Shown here one piece after another: positions 12,349 to 58,391 of a stretch of DNA of 64,000 nucleotides. Each line of letters begins with the position of its first letter. Within the stretch, counting starts at the first letter, position 1. This DNA comes from Clostridia bacterium (GTDB taxonomy: Bacteria > Bacillota > Clostridia > TANB77 > CAG-465), in assembly GCA_026415435.1 (NCBI GenBank), contig JAOAHC010000040.1:325456-389455 (forward strand), read 5' to 3'. Below the pieces are notes generated by a model. It was not told the DNA's origin and ran no database searches. It saw only the letters and a program-made list of their open reading frames with translations. The position numbers and the translations under genes are program-made.

Positions 12349-12942
12349 TTATTTATTGTTTTTTATCATTAATTTAATATTTTCTAGTAATTCTTTAGCT
12401 TTTTTAACGGGATAACATTTTTGTTCTTCTTCAACCGGAGAAATTACTTTATCAAATTGGTCATCAGATATATTGTACCAATCATCTCCAGATACAACAT
12501 AAATAAATTCACACATTTCATCCCTTCCACAATCAATATAATCATGACAGAGATCATATAGTCTTTTAAATCTTTTGATATACTTTCTTACATACTTAAT
12601 ATATAGTAGTTCAAATGCATTACCTGCTTCTTCGAAAAGATTAATATCGTAAGGAGGAAACTCGTTTAATAGTTCTTTTCGTATATTCAAATATTGAGAC
12701 GTAAATCTCCTTTCTTCATACGTATACATAAACAAATCTACGATACATTCCTCACCAAACCATTTGTAATCTTTGTATTCAAGTAATGGCTCAAAAATTT
12801 CATGTTCAGAGAGGTTATTACTAATCTTACACAGTATCCTTCTAGTATTTTTTTGTATCTCTTCATTATACTCAACAAGCGAGTCATAAAATAACTCTGC
12901 AAGTTCTTTCCATGACCAGTTTATTACAAGTTCTTCTGCCAT
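12349..12942 (-). CDS. Unknown acidic soluble protein
   Basis: A 197-residue protein starts at the ATG at 12942; the in-frame ATG 15 bases upstream overlaps the ribosome site GGGAGGA and is unlikely. It is helical and acidic, with many aromatic residues (INWSWKELAELFYDSLVEYN at the N-terminus) and a Tyr-rich middle (YKDYKWFGEECIVDLFMYTY). No signal peptide, membrane segment or catalytic motif is visible, and I do not recognise a family. It is transcribed alone from a near-perfect promoter and has its own terminator, so it is probably well expressed and functions independently. Confidence 0.78.
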   Translation of the reverse strand: MAEELVINWSWKELAELFYDSLVEYNEEIQKNTRRILCKISNNLSEHEIFEPLLEYKDYKWFGEECIVDLFMYTYEERRFTSQYLNIRKELLNEFPPYDINLFEEAGNAFELLYIKYVRKYIKRFKRLYDLCHDYIDCGRDEMCEFIYVVSGDDWYNISDDQFDKVISPVEEEQKCYPVKKAKELLENIKLMIKNNK

Positions 12943-12990
12943 AATTAATCCTCCCATATTTAGATTGGTTTAATATAATTTACAATGGTA

Positions 12991-24551: not shown

Positions 24552-25157
24552 TTATGCAGACATTGTGTATATCTCTTTGATGTATTGATATAGATTACAT
24601 ATGTAAATACAAAATTGATTATGACTATTTTCAAATATATAATCTAGATACAAGACTGTTAATTTGTCAAATTCCTCCTTATTATTATATAAAGGATTTT
24701 TTTCTTGATGTGTTAATACAGCACCTGTAAATATGACTTCTCGATCACGTTTTCGCTTTTCTATACCCAAAGCAATTTCTACAAGCTTGCATAAAAGCTT
24801 TTTTTTATTATATCCTGATACTCCCAAAAGATCCTTATATTCACCTAACTGACTTCTAATACTTACTTCCATAAAGAGTTTGTGTAGCGGAGATCCATAA
24901 GACATAAGAGAATTCTTTGAGTCAATAACATTTCTCTCAGGCAGCCTGTATTCTAGCATTTTATTATATTCACAATATATTTCTTTAAGTTCACCAGAAA
25001 CAGGGTATTTATCAGGCATATTAAAGACCTTTGCTTTATTAGCCATTTCTCCAAGTTCTACAGTACATTCCATTATAACATACATATCAGGATCAGTGAT
25101 ACTAGGATTTTCTTCAATCCATTTGTTAATTTCTTTCAATCTGTCCAACAAATTCAT
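24552..25157 (-). CDS. Unknown soluble protein
   Basis: This is a 201-residue protein, mainly helical by composition, starting MNLLDRLKEINKWIEENPSI. A middle segment SPLHKLFMEVSIRSQLGEYK and a basic stretch ALGIEKRKRDREVIFT are visible. No signal peptide, membrane helix or known catalytic motif is seen, and I do not recognise a family. The ATG has a good AGGAGG site. It is transcribed alone from a consensus promoter. In promoter strength and orphan status it resembles the gene at 12349-12942, though the protein sequences do not look related. Confidence 0.75.
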   Translation of the reverse strand: MNLLDRLKEINKWIEENPSITDPDMYVIMECTVELGEMANKAKVFNMPDKYPVSGELKEIYCEYNKMLEYRLPERNVIDSKNSLMSYGSPLHKLFMEVSIRSQLGEYKDLLGVSGYNKKKLLCKLVEIALGIEKRKRDREVIFTGAVLTHQEKNPLYNNKEEFDKLTVLYLDYIFENSHNQFCIYICNLYQYIKEIYTMSA

Positions 25158-29043: not shown

Positions 29044-29525
29044 CTATATCTTTCTTATCCAATAATTACATATTCCATTATCTATTTTCTCTATATTAAA
29101 GCCTACACTTTCAGCTGTTTTTCTTGAAGCAATATTATTTTCTCTTATAGTAATAAATATATCTTTAACACCATAACTATTTTGTAGATTTTTAACAGAT
29201 ATATCTAACGCTTTTTTCCCTATACCTTTACCAATGTAATTTTTATCTATTGCAATACTTATATGTCCACCTGTTTTCTTTAAACTCTCATTTAACTCAT
29301 ATCTAAGTTTTATTATACCAACAGGTTTTTCATAATTATATACTATATATTATTTATCCATAACATATAGTCTTCTTTAGATAATCCATGTGCATGATTT
29401 ATAAAACCGTTATAATCATGATCCATTTTATGCAGCATATTGTAAATATCCGAATCAAATTCATTTTTTAGTTTTTCTAAATATATATCTATCATGTTTT
29501 CTTCTGATGAATTTGCCTTTTTCAT
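29044..29525 (-). pseudogene. GNAT-family N-acetyltransferase, frameshifted
   Basis: Two frames join to make a typical GNAT acetyltransferase of about 160 residues. The first frame runs from the ATG at 29525 (MKKANSSEENMIDIYLEKLK to SKEDYMLWINN) and stops at a TAG (29345-29343). The second carries on from about 29342 as IVYNYEKPVGIIKLRY, then SIAIDKNYIGKGIGKKALDI, the acetyl-CoA-binding motif A of GNATs (xxGxGxG/A), and RENNIASRKTAESVGF, motif B, stopping at 29044. The break lies in an AT-dinucleotide run, so a two-base slip is a simple explanation. It lies 24 bases behind mgtA. A sequencing error is possible but the run is short. Confidence 0.8.
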
Positions 29526-32291: not shown

Positions 32292-32337
32292 TAAAAAAAA
32301 GGAAGTATTAAAAACAAATTATTGTTATTTAATACTT
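32292..32337 (-). terminator. Terminator of paralogue unit 1
   Basis: AAGTATTAAA (32303-32312) pairs with TTTAATACTT (32328-32337), with an inner AACA/TGTT pair; eight T follow on the minus strand. The loop and right arm are nearly the same as in units 2 and 3. Confidence 0.82.
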
Positions 32338-32371
32338 TTTTATAATATATTTAAAGGAGGATTTTTATATT

Positions 32372-32803
32372 TTAAAGTGATATTTCTAATAGATGAAAAG
32401 GAACAATACGTGCCTTTTTCCCGGTAGAACTGTAAGGAACATATTTTTCTCTAATATATTCTCTTAATACAGGCATATACTTTTTTTCTACTTTTTTATA
32501 TATTTCCCTACTAAGATTTTCCTTAATGCAAAAAGCTCTTATAGTCATGCCTCCAAGCTCTACTAGTCTGATTGCCTCTTTTGCGTAATATATTTCAGGA
32601 AACCCTTTATTATTTTCAGAATCTAATAAAATATTTTTAGAAAGCTCATTTGGTAATGAGAATATATAATCTTCCCACTCTTTTTTTGTGGTAAAAGATT
32701 TTAATTCTTTTACTTGTTCTATTGTAAATCCTTCTATTTCTATATGTCTCTTAACGGTCATATATATCAAACTATCTTTCCCATAATCGACTGGTGAATA
32801 CAT
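32372..32803 (-). CDS. Tandem paralogue 1 of an unrecognised small protein family
   Basis: The start is the ATG at 32803, placed seven bases after AGGGAG and aligned with the starts of the other two copies (ATG-TAT-TCA-CCA here, ATG-CAT-TCA-CCA in copy 3). The 143-residue product is soluble and basic. It shares with copy 2 the segment WEDYIFSLPNELSKNILLD (about 43-61). With both other copies it shares a C-terminal module: LVELGGMTIRAFCIKENLS (about 80-98) followed by KKYMPVLREYI (about 107-117). The module GMT-x4-C-x-KE-x(1,2)-S-x-E looks like a short HTH of the recombinase or terminase-small-subunit type, which is my inference. It stands between mgtA and copy 2 and has its own promoter and terminator. 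I do not recognise the family. Confidence 0.82.
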   Translation of the reverse strand: MYSPVDYGKDSLIYMTVKRHIEIEGFTIEQVKELKSFTTKKEWEDYIFSLPNELSKNILLDSENNKGFPEIYYAKEAIRLVELGGMTIRAFCIKENLSREIYKKVEKKYMPVLREYIREKYVPYSSTGKKARIVPFHLLEISL

Positions 32804-32872
32804 TAGTTTTTCTCCCTTCATATCGCCTAAAAATCTTAAAGCAATAGTAATATAATTAAAATGATCACTTTA

Positions 32873-32901
32873 ATTATACATTTTTTGTAGAATTTTGTCA
32901 A
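32873..32901 (-). promoter_or_regulatory. Promoter of paralogue unit 1
   Basis: TTGACA (32896-32901) and TATAAT (32873-32878) are 17 bases apart. The -10 is followed by a near-palindrome centred on TGATCA. A TTTACATAATTT element (32912-32923) lies 10 bases upstream of the -35. Confidence 0.83.
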
Positions 32902-33003
32902 TATGTTAGTGAAATTATGTAAATCTACACTCGTTAAATAATTATATTACAGTAGCTTAATAAAAATTTAGAAGTATTGATTTATATACAATAAACACTC
33001 CAT

Positions 33004-33053
33004 AAAAAGCAAGTATTAATTAACAAATTACTGTTAATTAATACTTGCTTTTT
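33004..33053 (-). terminator. Terminator of paralogue unit 2
   Basis: Two perfect 22-base arms (33004-33025 and 33032-33053) enclose the six-base loop AATTAC. It is the strongest of the three terminators and keeps the same loop as unit 3. Confidence 0.85.
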
Positions 33054-33064
33054 TAATGAGGATA

Positions 33065-33499
33065 TTATATTGTTATAGATAACTTGCTACCAAAAAGTCC
33101 ACCATTTATTTTCTGTCCTTCTGTATCAATAGAAACATAGTTATCCTCAACATGTTTTCTCAGTATGCGCATATACGTCTTTTCCATTTTTTCATAATCA
33201 ACTTTACTTATACATTCTTTATTGCAGAAGTCTTCTACTTTCATATTTTCAAGATTTGCCCTAATTGCCTTCTTTGAAAGAATTATCACAGAAAATGCCT
33301 TACAAGACTGTAGATCCAACAAAATAGTTTTAGCCAACTCTTCTGGTAATGAAAAAATAAAATCTTCCCAATCCTTCTTTGTGGAAAAACCGTCTAATTT
33401 AAGTAATTGTTCTGTTGAGTATCCTTTTAACTTCATATTCTTTTTCACAGTCCTATTTACTTGACTACTTTTTCCATAGTTATTTATCCCCTCGTACAT
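33065..33499 (-). CDS. Tandem paralogue 2 of the unrecognised small protein family
   Basis: This 144-residue protein starts MYEGINNYGKSSQVNRTVKK. It matches copy 1 along the whole length: WEDFIFSLPEELAKTILLD (about 44-62) against WEDYIFSLPNELSKNILLD. The C-terminal module is kept as MKVEDFCNKECISKVDYEKM then KTYMRILRKHVEDNY. The Cys in FCxKE is at residue 92, as in copy 1. The GGMT of copies 1 and 3 reads ENMKV here, so that part is not strictly conserved. The ribosome site AGGGAG and leader AAAAA-ATG resemble copy 1. It has its own promoter and terminator. Confidence 0.82.
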   Translation of the reverse strand: MYEGINNYGKSSQVNRTVKKNMKLKGYSTEQLLKLDGFSTKKDWEDFIFSLPEELAKTILLDLQSCKAFSVIILSKKAIRANLENMKVEDFCNKECISKVDYEKMEKTYMRILRKHVEDNYVSIDTEGQKINGGLFGSKLSITI

Positions 33500-33562
33500 T
33501 CATTTTTTCTCCCTTCGTTTCAAGCTCCAAAATCATGGAACAATATTAGTATAGTTAATTTA

Positions 33563-33591
33563 ATTATACTTTCTGTATAAATTTTTGTCAA
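33563..33591 (-). promoter_or_regulatory. Promoter of paralogue unit 2
   Basis: TTGACA (33586-33591) and TATAAT (33563-33568) are 17 bases apart. The element TTAACATAATTT (33604-33615) lies 12 bases upstream of the -35. Confidence 0.83.
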
Positions 33592-33652
33592 TACTTTTAT
33601 AAAAAATTATGTTAAGTTATTTAAAACTAATAGTTATATAAATAAAACTAAA

Positions 33653-33692
33653 AAAGTATTAACTAACAAATTACTGTTATTTAATACTCTTT
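33653..33692 (-). terminator. Terminator of paralogue unit 3
   Basis: AGTATTAA (33655-33662) and ACA (33666-33668) pair with TGT (33675-33677) and TTAATACT (33681-33688) around the loop AATTAC, the same as in unit 2. Confidence 0.75.
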
Positions 33693-33700
33693 AAATATTA

Positions 33701-34129
33701 TCATAGTGTTATAAGGTTCCTACTGCTAACCCTATGTATGTCATCTTTACAATGTAGAGGATATATACTCTCTATATGCTTTCTCAATGGAGGAACATAG
33801 TGTTCCTTTACAATTGTAAGATTTTGATCATTAATACATTCTTTTTCACAAAATTGTGATTCAGTCATTCCACCTATTTCAACCATTTTTATAAAATCCC
33901 TTGCAATATTAATCTCATTCATATTTAGCCCCGCTACGTATATTCTCTGTAATATTTCCCTTTTACTTTTAAAAGATACTTTTAAAAGTAAATGTTCAAA
34001 ACAAGATTTCGTATAAATTTGTATATCTCCACTGAAATTTTCCAACTCCTCATTGTCCTTCAAAACTGCAAGTATTATCCGCTTAATTACTACTCGATCA
34101 TTTAGATATTTATTATTTGGTGAATGCAT
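33701..34129 (-). CDS. Tandem paralogue 3 of the unrecognised small protein family, diverged N-terminus
   Basis: This 142-residue protein starts MHSPNNKYLNDRVVIKRIIL. Its N-terminal two thirds have diverged from copies 1 and 2, keeping only length and helical character. The C-terminal module is clear: FIKMVEIGGMTESQFCEKEC (about 79-98) then EHYVPPLRKHIESIY, which match copy 1. The family Cys is at residue 94. It is the first of the three after spoIIIAH, with 126 bases between and no terminator, so read-through from the sporulation operon is possible in addition to its own promoter. The family is unrecognised. Confidence 0.8.
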   Translation of the reverse strand: MHSPNNKYLNDRVVIKRIILAVLKDNEELENFSGDIQIYTKSCFEHLLLKVSFKSKREILQRIYVAGLNMNEINIARDFIKMVEIGGMTESQFCEKECINDQNLTIVKEHYVPPLRKHIESIYPLHCKDDIHRVSSRNLITL

Positions 34130-34201
34130 ATGTTTAAAATGCTCCTCCTTTTCTTTTGTGTCTATATTATAAGATCACATATTAAAATTATAATTACTTT
34201 A

Positions 34202-34230
34202 ATTATATGTTTTATATGGCTTTTTGTCAA
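34202..34230 (-). promoter_or_regulatory. Promoter of paralogue unit 3
   Basis: TTGACA (34225-34230) and TATAAT (34202-34207) are 17 bases apart. The element TTTACATAATTT (34243-34254) lies 12 bases upstream and touches the spoIIIAH stop codon. Confidence 0.83.
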
Positions 34231-34255
34231 TACTTTTCACAAAAATTATGTAAAG

Positions 34256-34861
34256 TTATTTTTTGTCAACCGAAATGCTTATTTTATCTGCACTTACTGC
34301 AAACTGATCCTGTAATATTTGTTGTATTTGAGCTACTTGTTCTGGTTTTAAATCTTCTTTGGATTTTACAACAACGGTTAAATTATCATTGTTGGTTGGT
34401 ATTATTACTATATCTTCTATTCCTCTTGACTTTATAACATTTTCAACCATGGTTATTAGATTTTTCTTAGATATTAGGTCATTTAATTTAGTTTGATATT
34501 CATTTATTTTTTCTTTAGTTGTATTAGAATTAGCTATCACCTCTCTATAGTTTTCACTAAGTTCTGAAAACATGTTATCTCTATCATATTTAAAAACGGC
34601 TATTGAATCTTCCACCTTACTAGTATCTACAGTTGAATTTACTTTAGTTTCATCTTGTAATGCATCAGTAGTTTTTTTATCATCTTTATCAGAATATATA
34701 CTTACATTATCATAAGTAAATCCGTCTTTATTGTTAACGTATATTGTTTGACCTAGATTCTTTTCTCTATCAGGATTATATTTATAGTTAATATATCCTG
34801 CTATAACTAGCATTAAAGTTATAGATAGTAAAGTTATCTGGCTTTTTTTTAATATTGTCAT
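34256..34861 (-). CDS. spoIIIAH: Stage III sporulation protein AH
   Basis: SpoIIIAH, in the mother-cell membrane, forms with forespore SpoIIQ a channel across the intermembrane space. The 201-residue protein has one N-terminal membrane helix (about 9-26, QITLLSITLMLVIAGYINYK) and a soluble domain. The C-terminal ring-building motif is visible as DIVIIPTNNDNLTVVVKSKE then LKPEQVAQIQQILQDQF. It is last in the spoIIIA operon, 15 bases after spoIIIAG. There is no clear terminator after its stop. Confidence 0.93.
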   Translation of the reverse strand: MTILKKSQITLLSITLMLVIAGYINYKYNPDREKNLGQTIYVNNKDGFTYDNVSIYSDKDDKKTTDALQDETKVNSTVDTSKVEDSIAVFKYDRDNMFSELSENYREVIANSNTTKEKINEYQTKLNDLISKKNLITMVENVIKSRGIEDIVIIPTNNDNLTVVVKSKEDLKPEQVAQIQQILQDQFAVSADKISISVDKK

Positions 34862-50880: not shown

Positions 50881-51735
50881 TTATCTATCCTTTTGTTCCT
50901 TCACATAAATAATTTTAGTATTAGTATTATTTAATGAATTATTACTATCAAAAGGATTATTTACTAGACTTCTTAATTTGAACTTTAAATTTGCATCTTC
51001 TTTATTTATTTTTTCTCTATCTCTAGAAATTCCAGATGCTTCTGGTAATGTTTTATTTCTATTAAATCTGCCTTTTATACTACTAGCGAAACCCTTAAAA
51101 ATATTACCTAGTGCTTTATACGCATGTGATATTTCATTATTATAGTTATTAACTGTTTCCTTAAATATATTACTTTTATCTTCTTTTAGTTTTTCTTTTA
51201 GCTTATCTGATGGTACATATCCATTAATGATTTCTTCTTCTGTTTTTTCTCTTAAGATATATTTATCATCTTTATCTAGATCAACTACTATTGATACTTT
51301 TTTTACTCTATCATTAGGGAGTTCACATTTTCCTCTATATGTAATAGCATTATCTTGTAGTCTTTGCTTATATTTCCCCAACTCATCTTCATTTATATTT
51401 AATTTAATTGCAAAAAATTCAGTATTTCCATTAATTAGAGGATTGGTTTTATCCGGCAAGTTCTTTTTACTTAATTCAAAATCAGGAATACCTGGGAACA
51501 TATATACTTTATTTCCAAACCCATGATTATTTAATATTCCTTTAGTTGGTTTTATATATCCAGAACTTAATATTTTATCTGCACTTTCTTCGCTAGTAAA
51601 ATGATATAGCCCCTCATTTAAAATTGTTTTTTTAATACTTTCATTTTCTATATTTTTATGTATTGATTTAGTAAATTCGACTATAAATGGATCTATTAAT
51701 ATCTTAGTAATAAGTGTAAAGCTTTTTAATTTCAT
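50881..51735 (-). CDS. Unknown protein, possible ADP-ribosyltransferase-fold domain
   Basis: The ATG at 51735 follows AAGGTGA. The 284-residue product has a short N-terminal helical part, then LYHFTSEESADKILSSGYIK (about 43-62), which resembles the first beta-strand and helix of ART-fold proteins (Y-H-x-T-S ... IL-x-S-G-x-I). Further on are a Gly loop (NHGFGNKVYMFPGIPDF, about 70-86) and EFFAIKLNINEDELG, then a helical C-terminal tail rich in Asn/Lys. The His in LYHFT would be the NAD-contacting His. A catalytic Glu cannot be fixed. It lies 25 bases upstream of obg and 19 bases downstream of trpS, in their direction. A toxin-type or regulatory function is possible. Confidence 0.55.
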   Translation of the reverse strand: MKLKSFTLITKILIDPFIVEFTKSIHKNIENESIKKTILNEGLYHFTSEESADKILSSGYIKPTKGILNNHGFGNKVYMFPGIPDFELSKKNLPDKTNPLINGNTEFFAIKLNINEDELGKYKQRLQDNAITYRGKCELPNDRVKKVSIVVDLDKDDKYILREKTEEEIINGYVPSDKLKEKLKEDKSNIFKETVNNYNNEISHAYKALGNIFKGFASSIKGRFNRNKTLPEASGISRDREKINKEDANLKFKLRSLVNNPFDSNNSLNNTNTKIIYVKEQKDR

Positions 51736-51754
51736 ATACTTCACCTTATTTTAA

Positions 51755-55874: not shown

Positions 55875-58391
55875 TTGTTCGAAATTATTTTAAAGAAATT
55901 ACATATAAAAACTAATCCTAATAAGATTCTGTGTTATACATTTTATGTACTTACAGCTATAGTTGTACTATTATCAATATCTTCTGTTTTAGGATTATTA
56001 ATAGGCGACGCTAGGGTATTTAATAACACATCCCCTTACGTATATGCTCTTTATTTTACATTTCCTGTACTTGCCTATTCTTACTTTGTAAATATTGGTG
56101 GTAAAAGTGATAAAGAAAAGATACTCATGTTTATTATAACTGCGGCTTTACTTGGTATGATTATAAGTTCAATGGTAGTTACGTGGATAAATAGTTCTAT
56201 TTGGTGGTTACTTGAAAAACTACCTAACTATCCAAAAGTTCTTCAATACTATCCTGAGTTATTTACACCTGCTCTTAGAACACTTAGTATGATAGTCCCA
56301 TTTATTGGTATATTTAGAGTTTTAGATTATTTCTTACTTATATATAGAGATGATGACTTACCAAAAGCAATAGCTGGTTTTAATGGTATATCTGCATCAA
56401 AAGCTGTAAAAGATACTGGAGCATTTACTTGTGAAACTATAATATGTAAAGAAAAAGGTACGTCTTTACCAGTAATAGTACCTGAGAAGAAAAGATATGA
56501 AGCAACTCTTGTTCAAGGTGCTACAGGTACTGGTAAAACAGCAACTGTACTTCTTCCTATGAGTGCTTATGATCTAGAAAAGAAATACTTTTTTAGAGAA
56601 TACTCAAAAAGAATAGGTTATACTATACTAAAAAAAGGTATTGCCTATATGACAGGACCTTTTACTAATGAATATATAAATAAAAACTTCTCATTAAACT
56701 ATTTAAAACCAAAACGTGGCATGGAGGAACAGTTCTATAGCCATTTAAGAAATCTAGTACAATATATGGATAATAGTACAGGTGACATTGTCTATAAGAA
56801 TTTAGGTATAACTATTGTAGAAAATGATGGCAAATATATATCAGACTTTATAGGCGTAGCCAAAAATTTTGATATTGATGTGTATTCTGTTGATCCTTCA
56901 AATATAGAAGGAACATTAAGTATAAATCCTTTTGCTATACCAGATGCTTCAAAAGTTGCATCGATAATAGCTGACGTTTTAAAATCTATGTACGAAAATG
57001 AAGGTGGTGGCGCCCCTGGTGATCCGTTCTTTACACAGGTTACTTTAGATGCATTCCAAAACTTAGCGATTCTTTTAAAAGAAATGTATCCTGTATTAAA
57101 TAATGGTAATATTGCAAGTTTAGAAGATATGCTTGAACTATTATATAACTTTGATAAAGTTGAAGAATTAGCAGAAGAAATGAAAAAAATACCTTCTCTT
57201 GAACAAAAATATAGACTACTTATAGCGTACTTTGAAAAGAATTTCTATAAACCATCTCTTAACATAAATGGTTATGAAATTCCTGGCACTAGAGGATCTG
57301 GCAGAAAAGATACTGAAAGATTCTTGTATGGTGCGATTACACAACTTAACAACTTACTTAGAAATCCTGGTCTTAAAAAAGCACTTTGTGGAAAAACAAA
57401 TATTCTAGACTTTGATAGAGCTCTACGTGATGGAAGTGTAGTAACTGCATGTTCAAGAAAAGGTGAACTTGGAATAATTCAATCAAAAGCATTTGGTATG
57501 TTCTTTATACTACAATTTCAAGATGCAGTATTAAGACGTAAAGGAAATGAAGATTCACGTACACCTCACTTCCTATACATTGATGAGTTTCCTGAATACA
57601 TTAACAAAGACATGGAAGTTATGTTTACACTATTTAGAAAATATAGATGTGGTGTTACCGTTGCAATACAAAACCTATCTCAACTTGAAAAAGGTGGTAA
57701 AAATAGTAGTTACTACAGACAAACAGTACTTGCAAATACTAAAACTCAAATCGTATTTGGTGATACAGTGCCTGAAGATAGTGAATACTGGGAAAAAGCC
57801 TTCGGTAAGGAGAAAGTTCCTGATACTAAATCTTCATTTGATATTGAGGCTAACATGAAAAAGAAAACTACTCTTGAAATACGTAAAAAAGAAAGAGCCG
57901 AAGGATATAAGATCCAAAATCTTGGTTTTGGTGCTATATACTTTAAAACTAAAGATATTAATGGTAAATCAAGATATGGTCAAGGTAAGACTAGCTTCTT
58001 AAATATAAAGTATAAATCAAAATCACCTACTGCAATGTTTAATTTTGAAAAATATATGATGTCAAAACCTGATATACCAAGTATTACAATAGACAACAGT
58101 GATAGTACTAATGATGATGATGCATTACTTGGAGCTAAAACAACTACTAGAGTTATTGAAGAGTTAAAATCTGCTTCAAGTGAAGTATTTGGTGGAAATG
58201 AGCATGATAGTCATAGATTTGCTAATTCAGAAAGCTCTGAACCTTTAGCATCTGTGCAATTAGATGATAATTTTGAAATAATATTTGATGATGAAATATT
58301 GCCAGAACCAGAAAATGCTAAAATAGATGGTGGCGCTATTACTGAGACTTATGAAGCTCCAGTAATAAGCAAAAAAGGTAAGAAAAATTAA
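55875..58391 (+). CDS. VirD4/TraG-type type IV coupling ATPase, orphan
   Basis: This 838-residue protein is a membrane-bound P-loop ATPase like the coupling proteins that bring substrates to type IV secretion machines. It has four or five N-terminal helices (about 18-155), Walker A VQGATGTGKTATVL (about 212-225), Walker B PHFLYIDEFPEYINKD (about 563-578) and the sensor-like FRKYRCGVTVAIQNLSQLEK. The last 130 residues are an acidic, low-complexity tail ending KKGKKN. The start is a TTG after GGTGAT, since no ATG or GTG fits. No relaxase, VirB4 or other conjugation genes are near. It is divergent from pth and monocistronic. Confidence 0.88.
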   Translation: MFEIILKKLHIKTNPNKILCYTFYVLTAIVVLLSISSVLGLLIGDARVFNNTSPYVYALYFTFPVLAYSYFVNIGGKSDKEKILMFIITAALLGMIISSMVVTWINSSIWWLLEKLPNYPKVLQYYPELFTPALRTLSMIVPFIGIFRVLDYFLLIYRDDDLPKAIAGFNGISASKAVKDTGAFTCETIICKEKGTSLPVIVPEKKRYEATLVQGATGTGKTATVLLPMSAYDLEKKYFFREYSKRIGYTILKKGIAYMTGPFTNEYINKNFSLNYLKPKRGMEEQFYSHLRNLVQYMDNSTGDIVYKNLGITIVENDGKYISDFIGVAKNFDIDVYSVDPSNIEGTLSINPFAIPDASKVASIIADVLKSMYENEGGGAPGDPFFTQVTLDAFQNLAILLKEMYPVLNNGNIASLEDMLELLYNFDKVEELAEEMKKIPSLEQKYRLLIAYFEKNFYKPSLNINGYEIPGTRGSGRKDTERFLYGAITQLNNLLRNPGLKKALCGKTNILDFDRALRDGSVVTACSRKGELGIIQSKAFGMFFILQFQDAVLRRKGNEDSRTPHFLYIDEFPEYINKDMEVMFTLFRKYRCGVTVAIQNLSQLEKGGKNSSYYRQTVLANTKTQIVFGDTVPEDSEYWEKAFGKEKVPDTKSSFDIEANMKKKTTLEIRKKERAEGYKIQNLGFGAIYFKTKDINGKSRYGQGKTSFLNIKYKSKSPTAMFNFEKYMMSKPDIPSITIDNSDSTNDDDALLGAKTTTRVIEELKSASSEVFGGNEHDSHRFANSESSEPLASVQLDDNFEIIFDDEILPEPENAKIDGGAITETYEAPVISKKGKKN

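Follow-up and report, generated by a model that had tools for sequence, protein, structure and literature searches.

The window, a stretch of 64,000 nt from contig JAOAHC010000040.1 of a Clostridia bacterium (GCA_026415435.1), carries three genes of 143, 144, and 142 aa downstream of spoIIIAH, which run in one direction on the minus strand and have spoIIIA, P-type ATPase, and cysS genes as neighbors (Table 1). A Shine-Dalgarno site precedes each of the three genes. For copy 1, the most likely start is the ATG at 32803 behind AAGGGAGAAAAA, which yields the 143-aa product, while the alternative in-frame start at 32821 (149 aa) is less likely. Between the P-type ATPase and cysS genes, an apparent acetyltransferase gene (29080-29525, minus strand; GNAT-like by eye) has a break that separates its N-terminal part from its C-terminal part.

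Table 1. Features of the three-gene array and its upstream neighbor, listed in the direction of transcription
Feature	Position	Strand	Remarks
spoIIIAH	34256-34861	-	immediately upstream of the array; PF12685, E 9.6e-28
Block upstream of copy 3 -35	34231-34257	-	23/27 identical to copy 2; begins at the spoIIIAH stop codon
Copy 3 promoter	34202-34230	-	TTGACA-17-TATAAT, perfect
Copy 3 dyad over -10, candidate operator	34189-34207	-	TATAATTAAAGTAATTATA; 19 bp
Copy 3 gene	33701-34129	-	142 aa; first gene downstream of spoIIIAH; related to copies 1 and 2 in the C-module, unlike them in the N-half
Copy 3 terminator hairpin	33654-33688	-	
Block upstream of copy 2 -35	33592-33618	-	counterpart of 34231-34257
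Copy 2 promoter	33563-33591	-	TTGACA-17-TATAAT, perfect
Copy 2 dyad over -10, candidate operator	33550-33568	-	TATAATTAAATTAACTATA; 19 bp; recurs exactly over the -10 box of the L022 orphan gene
Copy 2 gene	33065-33499	-	144 aa
Copy 2 terminator hairpin	33004-33053	-	22-bp perfect arms
Copy 1 promoter	32873-32901	-	TTGACA-17-TATAAT, perfect
Copy 1 dyad over -10, candidate operator	32851-32878	-	TATAATTAAAGTGATCATTTTAATTATA; 28 bp; best among 75 perfect promoters
Copy 1 gene	32372-32803	-	143 aa, counted from the ATG supported by a Shine-Dalgarno site
Copy 1 terminator hairpin	32303-32337	-	followed by a T run

Each cassette has its own perfect promoter, ribosome-binding site, and terminator hairpin, and the description of three self-contained paralogous units in the first-pass annotation was thus confirmed. 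Judged by their sequence, the three promoters are sigma-A-type. Five perfect promoters with a 17-nt spacer were found in the window against an expectation of 0.05, and the whole genome contained 75 with spacers of 16-18 nt, compared with 6 for a reversed-pattern control. Since perfect promoters are so frequent in this genome, where they drive many unrelated genes, promoter perfection alone is not special to the array; the cassette promoters indicate strong independent units and are not remarkable in themselves. By eye, several of the perfect promoters also seem to have sites for known repressors nearby: LexA-like ones at recA and at a gene resembling DNA polymerase IV, a Zur-like one at a gene resembling ZnuA, and a CtsR-like one at ctsR. 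Two more genes of about 200 aa in the window (12349-12957 and 24552-25157, minus strand), each behind a perfect promoter, had no Pfam match.

The three AT-rich terminator hairpins had z values of -4.0, -9.5, and -5.2. Over 35 nt, the hairpin of copy 3 was 94% identical to that of copy 2, and that of copy 1 was 71% identical. With up to 3 mismatches allowed, the hairpin sequence was found nowhere else in the genome, and no Rfam family was matched. Integron-like cassettes were rejected as an explanation because the hairpin is confined to these three copies and the genes are paralogues. As had been proposed earlier, no terminator lies between the stop codon of spoIIIAH (34256) and the promoter of copy 3 (34230), so that read-through from spoIIIA into copy 3 would be possible; synthesis of copy 3 during sporulation and separate partners for the paralogues, both suggested in the first-pass annotation, stay hypothetical.

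The relatedness of the proteins was assessed with BLOSUM62 alignments against 2000 shuffles. Copies 1 and 2 aligned throughout (z = 46, about 43% identity). The C-terminal halves of copies 1 and 3 and of copies 2 and 3 gave z values of 17.6 and 9.7, respectively, while the N-half of copy 3 did not resemble copy 1 or copy 2 (z = 0.3 and -0.1, respectively). Copy 3 is consequently a true relative in its C-terminal half only, in agreement with the first-pass annotation, which had named an unrelated copy 3 as the result that would speak against its reading. An internal repeat of two helix-turn-helix (HTH) units was considered as well, since in copies 1 and 2 the N-half looks by eye like a second HTH, and was rejected, the N-half scoring no higher than shuffles against the C-half in any copy. 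At the DNA level, the identity of copies 1 and 2 at the three codon positions was 0.58/0.69/0.56, and this pattern, with second positions most conserved, supports constraint at the protein level and hence coding. The corresponding NG86 estimates were dN of about 0.43, dS of about 1.47, and dN/dS of about 0.3; dN/dS was higher in comparisons with copy 3, where synonymous sites are near saturation.

The likeness of the units extends beyond the genes. The DNA upstream of copy 3 was 82% identical to that upstream of copy 2 over 73 nt, and the identity ended no more than three bases from the stop codon of spoIIIAH. Since this upstream paralogy reaches the stop codon and goes no further, it suggests that whole transcription units were duplicated in situ, in tandem. 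The simplest reading of the sequence is that copy 3 occupies the ancestral position and that whole units were duplicated downstream of it. The setting is ordinary gene duplication of whole transcription units. Within the family of this genome, the slot behind spoIIIAH is variable, with other genes found there in relatives. In one relative (G009; L060:2170-2655, reverse complement), a different orphan gene of 161 aa with the near-perfect promoter TTGACA-17-TATACT lies between spoIIIAH and cysS; it was rejected as a relative of the array. Because of this different promoter-driven orphan, the slot may be one that gathers lineage-specific genes.

Only three copies of the family were present in the array genome, and no credible relative was found in 36 genomes of the GTDB family, 385 of the order, and 391 of the class. 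The first-pass annotation had named multicopy homologues in related genomes as support for its reading, and these were therefore not seen. Credible relatives were likewise absent from genome contigs searched by peptide pattern and from viral contigs, phages, and plasmids. No match at curated cut-offs or at significance was obtained in Pfam, NCBIfam, PHROGs, PADLOC, or the PDB sequences, and the family is as unrecognized as had been stated. Several weak candidates were judged to be noise: a 668-aa ATPase (L007, 31% over 80 aa), a frame broken by five stops next to a gene for an AAA-ATPase-like protein (L011), a 26-aa match opposite a long phage-like gene (L103/L104), and further weak genome matches (L004-L006, L012-L017, and L069). 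Matches to DUF3196, a rhamnose transporter, dTMP kinase, and similar entries were far below the cut-offs. Within the genomes searched, the three-gene family is thus an orphan by sequence. Since the genus was represented by this genome alone, sampling may account for part of the orphan status.

The fold of the proteins was modeled with AlphaFold2 using the three-sequence alignment as input, which gave five uneven models of copy 1 with pLDDT values from 48 to 80. The best of these (mean pLDDT 80) has seven helices, and its C-module is predicted to comprise a helix at residues 69-83, a helix at 88-94, a short turn, and a helix at 99-120. In the model of copy 3, only about residues 67-122 were confident, with a helix pattern similar to that of copy 1, and the N-half was not confidently modeled. 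A Foldseek search with the copy 1 model returned no match. With the copy 3 model, FocB headed a list (prob 0.54) made up mostly of HTH regulators, with KorA, sigma chains, FapR, and TrpR-like structures among its entries, none of them significant (best E 0.85). No HTH family was matched in Pfam, NCBIfam, or PHROGs. For profile comparisons, relatives of KorA and PapB were collected from plasmid records; the KorA query sequence agreed with its PDB entries at every residue. The hhalign comparisons of the array family with KorA and PapB were not significant (E 0.011, over a different part, and 0.29, 0.09, and 0.2), while a KorA versus PapB control by the same method gave E 5e-4. In copies 2 and 3, an HTH matrix made from KorA and PapB had its best position where the HTH is predicted, with scores no better than those of shuffles. 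The net charge of the C-module was +5, +3, and -3 across the three copies and is thus not consistently positive. The C-terminal HTH proposed in the first-pass annotation is consistent with the helix layout predicted in two AlphaFold models, and the Foldseek, hhalign, and matrix scores did not reach significance; an HTH fold of the C-module is therefore plausible and unproven.

An AT-rich dyad starts at the -10 box of each cassette, and the three cassettes rank first, third, and joint seventh in this respect among the 75 perfect promoters. Compared singly with shuffles, the dyad of copy 1 had a p value of 0.001, and those of copies 2 and 3 had p values of 0.33 and 0.22, which is within chance for AT-rich DNA; being paralogous, the three promoters provide non-independent evidence. 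Among the three cassettes, 8-11 of the 13 bases after the -10 were identical and then 10-13 of the next 27, so that identity falls toward background just past the dyad. The 19-mer of the copy 2 dyad has a single further exact occurrence in the genome, which covers the perfect -10 of a gene about 5 kb beyond the end of the window, shortly before the contig ends (L022:1501-2081; G000:C49:394333 onward). Over the 13 bases after the -10, no other pair among the 2775 promoter pairs matched better than these two promoters. Since the shared site was noticed post hoc, during a survey of promoter-pattern matches, it is treated as a lead only. The L022 gene encodes an orphan protein of 167 aa with an HTH-like N-terminus, for which no relatives were found in the 36 family genomes; direct homology between this protein and the array proteins was considered and not detected.

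Known systems offer partial parallels. The KorA (TrfB) repressor of IncP plasmids and the adhesin regulators PapB/FocB are small helical HTH proteins, as the array proteins are predicted to be, and both KorA and FocB stood near the top of the nonsignificant Foldseek list. The KorA operator TTTAGCTAAA overlaps the -10 of KorA's own promoter, and promoters similar to that of KorA recur as preformed units (PMC2680271). By analogy, the candidate dyads over the cassette -10 boxes could be placed like this operator. The array differs in showing no significant profile match, in the length of its proteins (142-144 versus about 101 aa), and in being chromosomal, clostridial, and tandem. The C-module also resembles sigma-70 region 4-type HTH proteins in spacing by eye, with sigma chains in the copy 3 list, but it has no profile match, no region 2, and no significant Foldseek support.

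We tentatively prefer, at somewhat under even odds, an autoregulated, repressor-like HTH family of orphan DNA-binding proteins that was duplicated twice as promoter-gene-terminator units. The family would have arisen or settled behind spoIIIAH as a lineage-specific gene, and the complete units would then have been duplicated twice. Its products would most likely be small, all-helical, HTH-like DNA-binding proteins. The C-module and the -10 dyad are common to all three cassettes, and this suggests binding of the dyad by the module, perhaps as a dimer; each strong promoter would then be limited by its own product and those of its siblings, in the way that KorA limits its own promoter (PMC2680271). 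Copy 3, with its diverged N-terminus, might respond to a different input or partner. A wider version, in which a new autoregulated family multiplied as promoter-operator-gene-terminator units that cross-regulate one another and at least the L022 orphan regulator, one copy having exchanged its sensing N-terminus, is unlikely. It is quite possible, if also short of even odds, that the genes are fast-evolving orphan paralogues with no role in DNA binding, such as small helical proteins with adaptor, immunity, or stress functions, expressed constitutively from strong promoters, the likeness of promoters and terminators being due to duplication and selection for expression or to gene conversion. 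The absence of HTH profile support, the weakness of the copy 2 and 3 dyads taken alone, the many unrelated genes behind the 75 perfect promoters, and the dN/dS values of copies 1/2 and of copy 3 agree with such paralogues, which would, however, leave unexplained why promoter identity ends at the dyad edge and why an exact dyad lies over the -10 of the L022 gene.

An origin as moron-like or mobile-element cargo, that is, foreign stand-alone units inserted behind the operon and later duplicated, appears improbable. A phage moron is defined as a stand-alone unit with its own promoter outside the neighboring operon (PMC6814406), and the array is alike in having a promoter and a terminator for each unit; its orphan status and the differing content of the spoIIIAH-downstream slot among relatives, including the promoter-driven orphan in G009, also fit. 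Unlike morons, however, the array is not in a prophage, has no adjoining phage or mobile genes, lacks relatives among the phages, plasmids, and viral contigs searched, and consists of three paralogues duplicated in place, with similarity that stops at the spoIIIAH stop codon, as local duplication predicts. It is very improbable that the transcripts act as RNA, with hairpins kept beyond the need for termination in a regulatory or stabilizing role and the proteins secondary. The hairpins of copies 2 and 3 are indeed far more alike than their third codon positions (94% over 35 nt versus 45%), but the stronger conservation of second codon positions, the good Shine-Dalgarno sites, and the lack of an Rfam family speak against an RNA function. 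The array is an undescribed orphan family with a testable regulatory lead, and a clean example of such a family being duplicated as whole transcription units, in which the regulatory DNA was kept and one protein had half of its sequence replaced or changed past recognition. Should the proteins bind the -10 dyads of their own promoters, the array would show, in a compact and easily tested form, the beginnings of a lineage-specific regulator network; otherwise, it would be an ordinary array of orphan paralogues.

Elsewhere in the window, the protein encoded at 50881-51744 (minus strand) fell just short of the cut-off for Tox-ART-HYD1 (24.8 versus 25 bits); its gene adjoins those for a tryptophanyl-tRNA synthetase-like protein and an Obg-like GTPase. 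A type IV coupling-protein-like ATPase (T4SS-DNA_transf) is encoded at 55875-58391 (plus strand) amid housekeeping genes.
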